Shown: positions 31,898 to 60,186 of the stretch, in pieces | Layout: every line of letters starts with the position of its first letter | Numbering within the stretch: position 1 is the stretch's first letter | Notes under the pieces: model-generated | Databases searched by the model: none | What the model was told of the DNA's origin: nothing | What the model saw: only the letters and a program-made list of their open reading frames with translations | Assembly: GCA_016875395.1 (NCBI GenBank) | Contig: VGRF01000002.1 | Span: forward strand, 124,001-188,000 | DNA: 64,000 nt | Direction: 5' to 3' | Source: Deltaproteobacteria bacterium | Lineage (GTDB): Bacteria; Myxococcota_A; UBA9160; UBA6930 | Made by a program: the position numbers and the translations under genes

Positions 31898-32446
31898 CTA
31901 CCGAAGCGGACTGCGCGCGAGCCATGCCGCGCGCGTGAGCTCGAAGATGTCGTCGTTCTCGGCGAAGTCCTTGCGCGCGTGTAGGAAGCCGAGGCGCTGC
32001 GCGAGCCCGGCCGACGCGCGGTTGTCGAAGTGGATCTCGGCTTGGAGTCGCGCGACTCCCCAGACCTCGAAGAGGTGCGCCACCAACGCCGCGACGGCCT
32101 CGCGCGCGTAGCCGCGTCGCTGATGCGCAGCGCCGATCACGTAGGCGATCGAGCCGCCCTCGCCGCGCAGAGTCGCCTGCGTGAAGCCGATCGCCTCTCG
32201 CGAATCCCGCAGCCGCAGGATCCAGTTGAGCCAATGCTGAGCGCCGTCCGGGCTGCGCCCGCCCGCGAGGAACGCGTACTCGCGCTCCAGCGCCGCGACG
32301 CTTTCGGGCGGCCCGCCCGGCATGTGCGCGTAGAGCCGCGCATCGCTCAGCACGGGAAACATCGCCGAGGCGTGTTCGCCGCGGACGGGTTCGCAAAGGA
32401 GCCGCGCTGTCTCGATCTGCGCGAAGCGCGCATCGCGCTCGCTCAC
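31898..32446 (-). CDS. GNAT N-acetyltransferase (RimJ/RimL type)
   Basis: A 182-residue acetyl-CoA-dependent N-acetyltransferase. The N-terminus IETARLLCEPVRGEH is typical of the RimJ/RimL group, as is the central IAYVIGAAHQRRGYAREAVAALVAHLF, whose Q/RxxGxG/A loop binds acetyl-CoA. IHFDNRASAGLAQRLGF closes the fold. The substrate is unknown. GTG 32446 overlaps the selB stop by four bases, so the gene is co-translated with selB. That linkage does not by itself imply a role in selenoprotein synthesis. Confidence 0.88.
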   Translation of the reverse strand: MSERDARFAQIETARLLCEPVRGEHASAMFPVLSDARLYAHMPGGPPESVAALEREYAFLAGGRSPDGAQHWLNWILRLRDSREAIGFTQATLRGEGGSIAYVIGAAHQRRGYAREAVAALVAHLFEVWGVARLQAEIHFDNRASAGLAQRLGFLHARKDFAENDDIFELTRAAWLARSPLR

Positions 32447-34365
32447 TTCGCGCGCCGCTTCAGCACGCGCACTTCGCCGCGGCGCACGGTGAGCTGCTCC
32501 GTGTCGAACAGCTCCATCAGCGGCACGACGAACTTGCGCGTGCCGCCGATCAGCTCCTTGTAGGCCGCGGTGCCGATTTCGCCGTGCGCTTCGAGATGGG
32601 CGACGACTCGCGTCCGCAGCGCGGCGACGGCGCTCACATCGAACCACAGCTCGCCCGGCGCGCGCACGAGCGCGCCTTCGCGCTCGAGATGCGCGAGCAC
32701 CTCGCGCAGCTCCGCCTCGCTCGCGCGCAGCTCCGCTTCCCACTCGCGCAGCGTGCGCGGCGCGAGACCCGCCTCGCGCGCGCCCGCGCGCAGCCTCGCG
32801 GCGAGCTCCTGCTCGCGCGCAGCGAGCCGCGGCGCGAAGTCAGCGCGGCGCACGAGCTCGCCTTCGACCGCGACTTCTCCGCGCGCTGCGAGCTGTGCGA
32901 GCGCGCGCTCGTAAAGCGCGGGCGCAGCGTTCTCGGGCAGCGCACCGCGCAGCGTTCCCTTCGGCATGCCCGGCTTGATCGGGTTCGCGGCGTGAAACGC
33001 AGCGAGAGCCTCCGCGCAGCGGGACTCCGCCTGCGACACGAGCTCGGTCGACGCGAACACGTCTGCAGCGAGCGCGACGATCTTGCCGCTCTCCTCGGCG
33101 CTCGTGAGCGCTGAAGCGAGCGCCGCAGGCAGGAGCCCGCTCTGCGTGCGCAGCGCCTCGAGCGACATGCCCGCGAATCCGGAGCGAGCGACGCGCTGCG
33201 CCACGCCTTCGGTCGCATCGCCCCGGGCGAGCACTTCGAGGCCGCGCGCGAGAGCGCGGTCGCTGCGCCGCCGGTGCGGCGGCGCGACGTCGAGGATCTC
33301 GCCGCCACCGAGCGTCGCGCCCGAGGCGAAGCCGCGCACGACGAAGCGATCACCGGGCAGTAGTGCGAGCGCGCCGTCGTCGAGATGGATGCGCGCGAAC
33401 GAGCGCGACCCCGGCTCGAAGAAGTCTCCGCCGACGGGCGCGACGTGCGCGCGCACCGCAGCGGTGCCCACCAGCAGCTCGCACGCGACCGGCTTGGGTC
33501 CGCTGTGCGGCGCGGTCGCGAGCCAGCGCAGTGAAGCATCGAACGTGCTCGACGGCGCGAGTGAGCCGGGCGCTGCGACGAGCATCCCGCGCGCGAGATC
33601 CGCGAGCGCGATGCCCTGCAGGTTCACCGCGCAGCGCGAGCCCGGCTCGAGCCGCTCCGCGCTCGCGCCGAAGCTCTGCAGCCCGCGCACGCGCGCACGT
33701 GCGCCGCCGGGGAAGAGCTCGACCGCATCTCCCGCAGTGAGCTCGGCGCCTGCGAGCGTTCCCGTGACGACCGAGCCGAAGCCGCGCATCTCGAAGCAGC
33801 GATCCACCCAGAGCCGCGCGGGGCCCGCGCGCCTCGCTCGCTCGCGCGCCTGCTCCGCCGCGCGCACGAGGGCGCTGCGCAGCTCCGCGATGCCCGCGCC
33901 CGTCGTCGCGGACACGCGCAGCACGTCAGCGCTCGCGAGCGACGTGTCCGCGAGCAGATCGCGCACCTCGGTTTCGGCGAGGTCCGCGACGTCGGCGTCG
34001 GCAAGATCGCTCTTCGTCAGCGCGACGACGCCGTGCGCGATCCCGAGCAAGTCGATGATCGCCAGGTGCTCGCGCGTCTGCGGCATCGCGCCTTCGTCCG
34101 CGGCGACGACGAGCAGCACGAAGTCGATCCCCGTCGCGCCCGACACCATCGTGCGCACGAGCCCCTCATGCCCCGGCACGTCGACGACGCCGATCGTGAG
34201 CCCGGGCGCGAGCGCGAGCGGCGCGAACCCGAGCTCGATCGTGATGCCGCGCGCCTTCTCCTCGGGCAGCCGATCCGTGTCGACGCCCGTGAGCGCGCGC
34301 ACGAGCGTGGTCTTGCCGTGATCGATGTGACCCGCGGTGCCGAGGATGAGGTTGTTACGGGACAT
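32443..34365 (-). CDS. selB: Selenocysteine-specific elongation factor
   Basis: GTPase that delivers Sec-tRNA to the ribosome at UGA codons with a SECIS hairpin. The N-terminus LILGTAGHIDHGKTTLVRALTGVDTDRLPEEK with the ARGITIELGFAPL switch, DVPGHE (G3) and TKSD (G4) identifies an EF-Tu-like domain of the SelB type. Domains II/III follow, and the C-terminal half has winged-helix repeats ending EIGTAAYKELIGGTRKFVVPLMELFD, the SECIS-binding part. It is about 640 residues long. ATG 34365 is my start; a GTG nine bases earlier is possible. The upstream DNA contains two further copies of the first 48 or so bases (see repeat). No selA, selC or selD is in the window. Confidence 0.93.
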   Translation of the reverse strand: MSRNNLILGTAGHIDHGKTTLVRALTGVDTDRLPEEKARGITIELGFAPLALAPGLTIGVVDVPGHEGLVRTMVSGATGIDFVLLVVAADEGAMPQTREHLAIIDLLGIAHGVVALTKSDLADADVADLAETEVRDLLADTSLASADVLRVSATTGAGIAELRSALVRAAEQARERARRAGPARLWVDRCFEMRGFGSVVTGTLAGAELTAGDAVELFPGGARARVRGLQSFGASAERLEPGSRCAVNLQGIALADLARGMLVAAPGSLAPSSTFDASLRWLATAPHSGPKPVACELLVGTAAVRAHVAPVGGDFFEPGSRSFARIHLDDGALALLPGDRFVVRGFASGATLGGGEILDVAPPHRRRSDRALARGLEVLARGDATEGVAQRVARSGFAGMSLEALRTQSGLLPAALASALTSAEESGKIVALAADVFASTELVSQAESRCAEALAAFHAANPIKPGMPKGTLRGALPENAAPALYERALAQLAARGEVAVEGELVRRADFAPRLAAREQELAARLRAGAREAGLAPRTLREWEAELRASEAELREVLAHLEREGALVRAPGELWFDVSAVAALRTRVVAHLEAHGEIGTAAYKELIGGTRKFVVPLMELFDTEQLTVRRGEVRVLKRRAK

Positions 34366-34584
34366 CGAAGCCACTGTCCGATCTCCGCTCGGCTTCGCCT
34401 CGCTGCGCGCCGCTTGGCGGCTTGCCGCCGTGATCGATGTGGCCCGCGGTGCCGAGGATGAGGTTGCTACGCGTCATCGAAGCCACTGTCCGATCTCCGC
34501 TCGGCTTCGCCTCGCTGCGCGCCGCTTCGCGGCTTGCTGCCGTGATCGATGTGGCCCGCGGTGCCGAGGATGAGGTTGTTACGG
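34319..34584. repeat. 112-bp tandem repeat made of the selB 5' end plus a REP-like insert
   Basis: Units begin at 34319, 34431 and 34543 (the third is partial, to about 34584), exactly 112 bases apart. Each unit starts with the complement of the selB codons for NNLILGTAGHIDHG, including a copy of the start region. It then runs through a CGGCTTCGCCTCGCTGCGCG element. Unit 1 is the functional selB start. Units 2 and 3 encode short truncated copies beginning MTRSNLILG and MTTPALRNNLILG that leave the SelB sequence right after HIDHG. Because 112 is not a multiple of three, the copies are not one reading frame. Confidence 0.92.
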
Positions 34585-34642
34585 AGTGCCGGAGTCGTCA
34601 TTGCTGGCAGGGTTGCACACACGCAGCTCGGCGCCGGATGGG

Positions 34643-34658
34643 GTGAACGGTCGTTCAC
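34643..34658. promoter_or_regulatory. Palindromic operator candidate ahead of the Phd/VapC pair
   Basis: GTGAACG-GT-CGTTCAC is a perfect 7-2-7 inverted repeat, 36 bases before the antitoxin ATG. Autorepression by the antitoxin-toxin complex is the usual arrangement. The half-site also resembles TetR-family operators, so another regulator is possible. Confidence 0.5.
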
Positions 34659-34694: not shown

Positions 34695-34979
34695 ATGGCG
34701 AAAGAGAGAATCATCGGAGTTCGCGAGCTGCGGGAACGGCTGAGCGATTATCTCGAGCTCGTTGCGAACGGGGAGTCGCTCACGATCGGAACGCGCAAAG
34801 CCGCGGTTGCGCGGCTCGTGCCCGCAGCGCCGCTGAGCGAGGGCGAAGCGTTGGATCGGCTCGCGGCGGAGGGACGAATTCAGAAGCCGCGTGGGAAGCT
34901 CCGCCTGCGCGGGCCCGTGAAGCTGCGCAAGCGGCAAACGAAGTCGGTCTCAGACCAAGTCGTCGAGGATCGGCGATGA
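34695..34979 (+). CDS. Type II antitoxin, Phd/YefM family
   Basis: A 94-residue antitoxin. The N-terminal half, MAKERIIGVRELRERLSDYL through ESLTIGTRKAAVARLVP, is the Phd/YefM DNA-binding fold. The basic C-terminal half (about 60-94) is presumably disordered and wraps the toxin. Its stop overlaps the toxin ATG by four bases, the classical antitoxin-first order. A perfect palindrome lies upstream. It is transcribed away from selB and converges with serS through the toxin gene. Confidence 0.9.
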   Translation: MAKERIIGVRELRERLSDYLELVANGESLTIGTRKAAVARLVPAAPLSEGEALDRLAAEGRIQKPRGKLRLRGPVKLRKRQTKSVSDQVVEDRR

Positions 34980-35404
34980 TCCTCTACCTCGACACGAGCG
35001 CGCTGGTGAAGCTCTATGTCGAGGAAGCGGGCTCCGCGCGGACTCGCGAGCTCGTCGATCGCTCCGACGGCGCCTACACGTCACGGATCAGCTACGTCGA
35101 GGCGCGTGCCGCATTTGCGCGGCGGCTACGCGCGCAGGCGATGAGCCGCCGCGAACACGGCGACATCGTGAGTAGGTTCGAGGCGGGCTGGAGCGGCTTC
35201 GGCGTCGTCGAGCTCTCCGACCCACTCGCGCGAAGCGCGGGCACGCTCGCCGAGAAGCACGGCCTACGGGCGCTCGACGCGACCCAGCTGGCAGCGGCGC
35301 TCGAGCTGCGCACGGGGTCTGTGCCGGTCGACTTCGCTTGTTTCGACCGCCGCCTTGCGCACGCTGCGCGCGAGGAACGCCTGCCGCTCGCAGCGAGCCT
35401 CTAG
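34976..35404 (+). CDS. vapC: PIN-domain ribonuclease toxin, VapC family
   Basis: A 142-residue toxin expected to cleave RNA, often tRNA. PIN acidic residues are visible: D6 in ILYLDTSALVKL, Glu in SRISYVEARAAF, and Asp in RALDATQLAAAL, with a last Asp in FACFDRRL. ATG 34976 overlaps the antitoxin stop. The 3' end overlaps the serS stop by four bases on the other strand. It is paired with a Phd-type rather than AbrB/VapB-type antitoxin, a common mixed pairing. Confidence 0.9.
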   Translation: MILYLDTSALVKLYVEEAGSARTRELVDRSDGAYTSRISYVEARAAFARRLRAQAMSRREHGDIVSRFEAGWSGFGVVELSDPLARSAGTLAEKHGLRALDATQLAAALELRTGSVPVDFACFDRRLAHAAREERLPLAASL

Positions 35405-36678
35405 CGCTTCCCGATCACCTCGCGCCCCACGTACGGCTGCAGCGCCTTCGGCACCGCGATCGTGCCGTCGGCGCGCTGGTGGTTCTCGAGCAGCGCGAGG
35501 ATCAGGCGCGCGTTCGAGACCGCGGTGCCGTTCAGCATGTGCGCGAACTCGTTCTTCTTCTTGGCCTTGCGCCGGAAGCGCACGCGCAGCCGGCGCGCCT
35601 GATAATCGGTGCAGTTCGACGTGCTCGAGATCTCGCCGTAGCTGCCGCGCTCGCCGCGCCCCGGCATCCACGCCTCGATGTCGAACTTGCGATACGCCGG
35701 CGCGCCGAGGTCGCCGGCCGCGATGTCGACCACGCGATACGGCAGCTGGAGTCCCTGATAAATGCGCTCCTCGATCGCGAGCAGCTGCTCGTGCATCGCG
35801 TCGGAATCTTCGGGGCGCGTGATCGCGAACATCTCCACCTTCGTGAACTGATGCACGCGGTAGAGGCCCTTGCTCTCGCGCCCCGCGGCGCCCGCCTCGG
35901 TGCGGAAGCAGTGAGAGATGCCGGCCATCTTCACCGGCAGCTGCTCTTCCTCGAGGATCGTGTCTGCGTAGAGGCCACCCAGCGTGATCTCCGCAGTGCC
36001 GACGAGGCAGAGGTCGCTGTTCGCGACCGAGTAGATCTGCGTCTCCTCGCCGCGCGGGTTGAAGCCGATGCCTTCGAGGATGTCCGCGCGCGCGAGGTCG
36101 GGCGTGACGTAGGGCGTGAAGCCTTCGGCCAACAACAAGTCGAGCGCGTAGCGCTGCAGCCCGAGCTCGAGCAGCACGGCCTCGTTCTTCAGGTAGTAGA
36201 ACTTCTGTCCCGCCACCTTCGCGCCGCCGTCGAAGTCCGCGAGATCGAGCGCCGCCGCGAGCTGGAGATGATCCTTCGGCGCGAAGCCGAGCTGCGCTGG
36301 CGCGCCGACGCGGCGCAGCTCCTTCGCGTCGTCCTCGCCCCCATCCGGTACGGCGGCGTGCAGGAAGTTCGGGAGATCGCGCAGCTTCGCGTCGAGCTTC
36401 GCGCGCAGCGCCTCGGTCTCTGCCTCCACGCGCACGACCGCCTCCTTCAGCGCGCGACCCTCGGCGCCGTGCGCTTCGCGCTCCTCGGGCGCGAGCTTCT
36501 TCTTGCCGCGCTCCTGGTGCTCGTTGCGCCGGCGATTCGTCTCGTTCAGCTCGTGCTGCTTCGCCGCGACCTGCGCGTGCAGCGCGATCGCGCCATCCAG
36601 ATCGGCGCGCACGCCGCGCCGGCGAATGCTCGCCGCTATTTCATCGCGGCGTTCGGCGAGGCTGCGGGCATCGAGCAT
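35401..36678 (-). CDS. serS: Serine--tRNA ligase
   Basis: Charges tRNA-Ser, and tRNA-Sec in organisms that use selenocysteine. It is 425 residues long. The N-terminal coiled-coil tRNA-binding arm spans about 25-105, rich in KQHELNETNRRRN-type heptads. Class II motif 2 is FRTEAGAAGRESKGLYRVHQF. The motif 3 region NGTAVSNARLILALLENHQ resembles the Thermus-type form, and the C-terminus ends VPKALQPYVGREVIGKR. The ATG at 36678 is clear. selB lies one kilobase downstream on the same strand, separated by the toxin-antitoxin pair and repeats. Confidence 0.96.
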   Translation of the reverse strand: MLDARSLAERRDEIAASIRRRGVRADLDGAIALHAQVAAKQHELNETNRRRNEHQERGKKKLAPEEREAHGAEGRALKEAVVRVEAETEALRAKLDAKLRDLPNFLHAAVPDGGEDDAKELRRVGAPAQLGFAPKDHLQLAAALDLADFDGGAKVAGQKFYYLKNEAVLLELGLQRYALDLLLAEGFTPYVTPDLARADILEGIGFNPRGEETQIYSVANSDLCLVGTAEITLGGLYADTILEEEQLPVKMAGISHCFRTEAGAAGRESKGLYRVHQFTKVEMFAITRPEDSDAMHEQLLAIEERIYQGLQLPYRVVDIAAGDLGAPAYRKFDIEAWMPGRGERGSYGEISSTSNCTDYQARRLRVRFRRKAKKKNEFAHMLNGTAVSNARLILALLENHQRADGTIAVPKALQPYVGREVIGKR

Positions 36679-59870: not shown

Positions 59871-60186
59871 GGGGTGTTGGGGCGTGCGGGGCGTGGTGCC
59901 TCGGCGGGGCCTCGCCAGCTCTAGCCCGGTTTACTCCGCATCAGGCTCGAAGACTCGCCCGATGCTGCGCGCTTCGCTTGCGGTCTCGGCCGACGTGGCT
60001 GGGAGTTGCGTGCGACTTCGAGGTTGTTCTGGCGTGGCGGTGGCGCGGGGCAGGCGAGCCGTCGAAGACTCGGCTCGCGGAGGTGGAGGGCTCGCCGTCG
60101 AGGACTCGGCTCGCGGAGCGTGCGGGGCTCGCAAAGCGCGGGGCTGCGCGTAATTCTTGGCGCCTTCGCGTCGGAGCGTCCCCCCA
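59871..60186. other. Gene-free 316-base interval with short direct repeats
   Basis: Lies between the divergent EamA and ctaB genes, so it should hold both promoters, but I could not pick a convincing -35/-10 pair. CGTCGA(A/G)GACTCGGCTCGCG occurs twice with a 36-base period (about 60058-60081 and 60094-60117). A related GCTCGAAGACTCGCC lies at about 59945. Frames across it give only Ser/Ala/Pro/Arg-rich sequence, so I see no gene. Confidence 0.6.

Follow-up and report, generated by a model that had tools for sequence, protein, structure and literature searches.

REP/BIME, ERIC and Correia elements and MITEs are short repeats that are dispersed between genes, and Rickettsia palindromic elements are repeats that are inserted in frame into genes. 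In E. coli, the selAB operon has an upstream SECIS-like element, which is bound by SelB. In this study, a window of 64,000 nucleotides was analysed, in which a dispersed repeat, referred to here as R, forms a tandem array with copies of the first codons of selB. Like REP/BIME, ERIC and Correia elements and MITEs, R is short, multicopy and intergenic, has small palindromic parts and forms tandem clusters in places. It differs from them in that its tail belongs to this genome alone among the genomes searched, that it bears a GGAG-8 nt-GTG start signal, and that no dedicated transposase was found adjoining it. R resembles the Rickettsia palindromic elements as a dispersed repeat that has turned coding, but all that it gives a real gene is the start codon with a short stretch of N-terminal residues, and the gene-internal R copies here are found in truncated mini-ORFs. 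As in the E. coli selAB operon, a leader stands ahead of a gene of the selenocysteine machinery; unlike the E. coli element, this leader has no structure above that of shuffled sequences and no Rfam match, and R is not restricted to sel genes. The literature searched, which left out most subscription journals, gave no account of a selB leader made of tandem repeats.

selB and the tandem array at its start

The gene at 32443..34374 on the minus strand was assigned from profiles and from reading of the ORF. It is a bona fide selB, with 643 aa from GTG 34374 (VASMSRNNLILGTAGHIDHGKTT...) and an alternative start at ATG 34365. The product scored 301 bits against TIGR00475 of NCBIfam (cut-off 242.25), and in Pfam it has GTP_EFTU and SelB-wing domains, with PF09106, PF09107 and PF25461 over their cut-offs. 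Because a tRNA-Sec (RF01852, 71.3 bits) and SelA (TIGR00474, 514.9 bits) are present in the genome, the selenocysteine pathway is likely used.

The initial annotation had described a 112-bp tandem repeat of the start of this gene, and the repeat was confirmed. TRF reported a tandem array at 34315..34583 on the minus strand with a period of 112 bp, 2.4 copies, a 95% match and a score of 496, against a score of 122 for the runner-up array in the window, and the 112-bp register was reproduced by a second repeat search. Another tandem repeat, 36-bp x 2.1, was seen by TRF at 60058-60132 of the window. In the sense of selB, the array reads S0-R1-S1-R2-S2-selB, in which S is the initial ~45 bp of selB, through HIDHG, and R is the dispersed intergenic repeat of ~60 bp. 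All its parts are on the minus strand. S0, the outermost copy of the selB start (34539..34601), reads ATG ACG ACT CCG GCA CTC CGT AAC AAC ... ATC GAT CAC GGC (MTTPALRNNLILGTAGHIDHG), and S1, the middle copy (34427..34486), runs from GTG (34486) or ATG (34477) to HIDHG. R1 (34475..34538) has the tail GGAG-ATCGGACA-GTG-GCT-TCG-ATG, and R2 (34363..34426) abuts the upstream side of selB. The 45 bp common to the S copies (CGTAACAACCTC...GATCACGGC) have one to two base differences between copies, and R1 and R2, with the three following bases included, have four. Three units had been proposed in which the start region switches to a REP-like sequence; the start region does occur three times, but the REP-like part only twice. 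Copies 1 and 2 pass into R after HIDHG, copy 3 runs on into selB, and no R lies upstream of S0. The peptides attributed to the upstream copies, MTRSNLILG... and MTTPALRNNLILG..., are present as claimed.

The S part of the array had no match elsewhere in the genome, in which the array is unique, and a second copy of the selB start outside it was ruled out. Among arrays with a period of at least 30 in the ~0.66 Mb sampled of the 4.5-Mb genome, no other composite of a repeat and a gene part was found; the other R-core arrays in the ~0.66 Mb scanned had periods of 45-46 bp and carried no gene parts.

R2 is the source of the GGAG and of the GTG/ATG start codons of selB. GTG 34374, which lies inside R, 8 nt past GGAG, is the best-placed start, ahead of the ATG. 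When the sequence of selB (VASMSRNNLILGTAGHIDHGKT...) was read, no ATG, GTG or TTG was found from the start codons of R to the conserved domain, and the start codon of selB therefore comes from R. The start codons in R are the sole ones open to this gene, and selB would most likely be translated from the GTG of R2.

Dispersal of R and other repeated sequences of the genome

The core of R had 48 matches in the genome. Its tail, GAGATCGRACAGTGGCYTC, had 39 genome matches with at most 3 mismatches (reversed control, 1), and with at most 2 mismatches 29 matches were obtained here versus 0-3 in each of 40 relatives, in which the motif was at chance level. This form of R is confined to this genome among the genomes searched. 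When aligned, the copies extend from GCAAGC by way of GCGCGCAGCGAGGCGAAGCCGAGCGGAG to ATCGAACA-GTG-GCC-TCG, and they mostly lie 40-60 nt past the stop of an upstream long ORF, so that R, with many copies mainly between genes, is a dispersed intergenic repeat of the REP-like kind. In the copies, the GGCGAAGCC and GCCGAAGGC forms of a candidate palindrome are both present.

The GTG lies 8 nt past GGAG or GAAG in 26 of the 29 aligned copies, and in about 10 of these it is in frame with a long ORF; fmt-, folP- and mazG-like genes are among them. These three names were recognised from the encoded sequence; a family search stands behind the names of selB, serS, selA and the toxin-antitoxin pair only. 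In the fmt-like case (VASASGSEKPSALAAQPRALRVAFFGTPDF...), the sequence likewise reads without ATG, GTG or TTG from the start codons of R to the conserved domain, so R provides the start of this gene too. In a scan of named genomes, with the window's own genome excluded, the closest was the MAG Deltaproteobacteria OFTM60, 59% identical.

The possibility that R is the REP of a resident RAYT (Y1) transposase was considered and rejected, with a single PF01797 match in the genome and no significant R copy within +/-1.5 kb of it. This sole Y1_Tnp gene (L188, G000:C6:88585-88881) scored 24.9 bits, and its translated flanks have a recurring GTYVH/GRTCTEA pattern, which suggests a short repeat of its own and not R. 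Genome-wide, the core of R was also observed in a second class of copies, with a longer leader (CCGAACGCGGCTCGGGAAGC...) and the tail TCGnAAAGGA, for example at C20:68770, C34:5690, C13:64469, C10:18032 and C6:11694; copies of this class lie a short way upstream of an rpmJ-like start (MKVRASVKKMCEKC) and in the vicinity of tRNA-like sequences. A separate dispersed repeat around CTTGTTTACT has similar flanks (gctcttcCTTGTTTACTtcgc...) and was found at L120:12986, L126:17495 and 17779, L129:3440 and 3571, L130:2179 and 3722, and L133:13812.

During the comparison of R copies, a 10-mer, GTTGTTACGG, was noticed, and its abundance is more surprising than the array itself. The genome has 379 copies of it, 195 on the forward and 184 on the reverse strand (1 and 1, respectively, for the reversed-pattern control), whereas 90 other genomes of the class have 0-7 copies each. 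Its positions in the window are 34351 and 34575 on the plus strand and 14891, 53169 and 57375 on the minus strand, and the selB array thus contains two of the 379 copies, one at the first bases of S0 and one at those of S2. The core was (G/C)TTGTTA(C/G)GG in a 0.49-Mb sample, and most other single-base variants were rare. The 10-mer is found in several reading frames, as LLR, SCYG and VVT, and in antisense as RNN or RNK. In Leu-Leu-Arg runs, TTG TTA CGG was used 23 times versus <0.1 predicted by codon usage, and 67 of 112 TTA codons were preceded by TTG; the rare codon pair TTG TTA is strongly favoured in this context. Conservation of the encoded residues in relatives is mixed: some are conserved and others, for example RNN in SelB, are not. 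Taken together, these observations point to selection or a mutational process that acts on the DNA sequence, perhaps as with DNA uptake sequences; alternatives would be another motif under selection or a systematic error of sequencing where the motif is modified. GTTACGG does not match GTTRRRY, and for this reason CCTAACAAC/GTTGTTACGG was not retained as an attC (integron) site.

The array as a candidate leader of selB

Two short ORFs lie upstream on the minus strand, as the initial annotation had proposed. Mini-ORF 1 (34467..34601, 44 aa, ATG 34601) is part of a longer open frame, and its TAG stop begins 17 nt past the S1 GTG; mini-ORF 2 (34355..34486, 43 aa, VASMTRSNLILGTAGHIDHGGKPPSGAQRGEAERRSDSGFDVP), obtained from ORF reading, has its stop just inside selB. 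The several potential ribosome-loading sites that had been suggested were also found, with GGAG-8 nt-GTG in each R. What was not supported was the idea of a leader specific to selB, since R lies upstream of many unrelated genes in the genome.

It is conceivable that the tandem starts form a tunable translational leader, in which slippage would alter the copy number and the upstream mini-ORFs would couple to or compete with initiation at selB. The loading sites and the stop positions of the mini-ORFs fit such a leader, the 112-bp units with ~95% identity are long enough for recombination, and the presence of tRNA-Sec and SelA suggests that SelB is used. A need for control is plausible because, as stated in PMC8124441, Sec-tRNA may be sequestered by an excess of SelB when selenium is deficient. 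We nevertheless consider this leader unlikely. Besides the many unrelated genes preceded by R, the fold of the leader RNA was no better than that of shuffles (z = -0.5), no Rfam match was obtained in the leader at E <= 1, neither a sigma-70-like promoter nor a hairpin-U terminator was found within the array, and no family match or homologue was found for the mini-peptides. The arrangement is also unconserved in relatives, bar a different array in one genus. An RNA leader or attenuator was rejected on the fold, Rfam, terminator and promoter results, and the same fold and Rfam results gave no SECIS or known structured RNA leader. A dedicated regulatory role of the array has no support in anything found. 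Tuning of SelB by copy number or slippage, and coupling or competition between the mini-ORFs and selB initiation, are possible on the layout of the starts, the former as speculation, and decoy peptides would likewise be speculative. A broader proposal, in which the ~30-copy genome-specific repeats are portable cassettes of a ribosome-binding site and a start codon for many genes and the selB expansion is a copy-number-variable leader that sets SelB dosage, is likewise unlikely.

Origin of the array

We believe that the array is probably a repeat-driven duplication, which arose as a by-product when the repeat proliferated and is neutral or mildly modifying in its effect. R1 and R2 both read GATCGGACAGTGGCTTC, a combination that is in no other copy among those listed, which argues for sister copies from a local tandem duplication and not for two insertions. 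Most simply, the two would have been made on the spot.

The neighbourhood of the gene was also compared. The serS stop lies upstream of selB in 26 of 29 relatives, and the distance from this stop to GHIDHGK was 22-76 nt in 24 of the 26 and 160 and 235 nt in the other two. In this genome, serS (35401..36678, minus strand, TIGR00414, 443.6 bits) is separated from selB by the array and by a toxin-antitoxin-like pair on the opposite strand, whereas the gap is short in most relatives. The pair consists of a Phd/YefM-like antitoxin gene divergent from selB (34695..34979, plus strand; PF02604 26.4 bits, under the cut-off, and TIGR01552 over the cut-off) and a PIN-domain (VapC-like) toxin gene that overlaps the antitoxin stop (34976..35404, plus strand; PF01850 49.6 bits). 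An inverted repeat, GTGAACG-nn-CGTTCAC, was read at 34643..34658, in the interval that separates the antitoxin gene from the selB array, and may be the antitoxin operator.

In a genome of another genus of the same family (G007, L069 1314-1507), R-like tandem repeats were likewise found in the gap that separates serS from the conserved selB start. That array differs from the one described here in that its unit is 48 bp in 4.1 copies, it carries no copied selB codons, and it is in frame with selB. Tandem growth of R-like repeats at the serS-selB gap has thus occurred twice, with different units, and the array in G007 points to a repeat-driven origin.

In the probable course of events, a dispersed R of ~60 bp came to lie directly before selB, where it gives a Shine-Dalgarno-like GGAG and a GTG start, and R and the initial ~45 bp of selB were then duplicated in tandem. 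The likely cause would be slippage or template switching that involved the 5'-terminal GCAAG of R and the GGCAAG of the P-loop codons, with later mispairing of the 112-bp units. The result would be two truncated, overlapping start regions (S0-R1 and S1-R2) ahead of an intact, still translated selB, and the two mini-ORFs, which end just past the next start, might permit multiple initiation or re-initiation by ribosomes. selB gives way to R past the GGC of HIDHG; at this point selB has GGCAAGACC and R opens with (A/G)GCAAGCC. A duplication guided by microhomology is a fair inference, but the junction, CACGGC(A/G)GCAAGCC, is not a clean GGCAAG join. The neutrality of the array is presumed from missing evidence only.

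The order of the units is partly unexplained by a single duplication of R and S, because S0 has no upstream R. One has to assume either that an R0 was lost, perhaps when the toxin-antitoxin pair arrived, or that R was inserted with a long duplication of its target. In the insertion scheme, R would have entered within the selB start with a target-site duplication of ~45 bp (S-R-S), and one slippage expansion would have followed. This would explain how S0, which lacks its own R, comes to lie upstream of R1, and why S0 has a longer N-terminus (MTTPAL), which could be the ancestral start. We think that such an insertion is improbable, as no comparable target duplication was seen by eye in the printed flanks of other R copies, no other such composite was found among the arrays of period at least 30 that were scanned, and no transposase is linked to R, the lone Y1 match (24.9 bits) having no significant R copy adjoining it. 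An assembly artefact, with a real locus of a single copy or of another copy number, is very improbable: the source is a draft genome of 96 contigs, but the array sits in the middle of a 342-kb contig, ordinary reads span a 112-bp unit with its distinguishing bases, and the units differ at several base positions, which argues against a simple assembly duplication.

With repeat-driven duplication as the probable origin, the locus indicates that a proliferating intergenic repeat can capture the translation start of housekeeping genes (selB and apparently fmt) and go on to copy some of the gene along with itself. If the copy number is in truth variable, the array would offer a simple means by which the incorporation of selenocysteine could be tuned. 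On the present evidence, it is a neat case of a gene start remodelled by a repeat.
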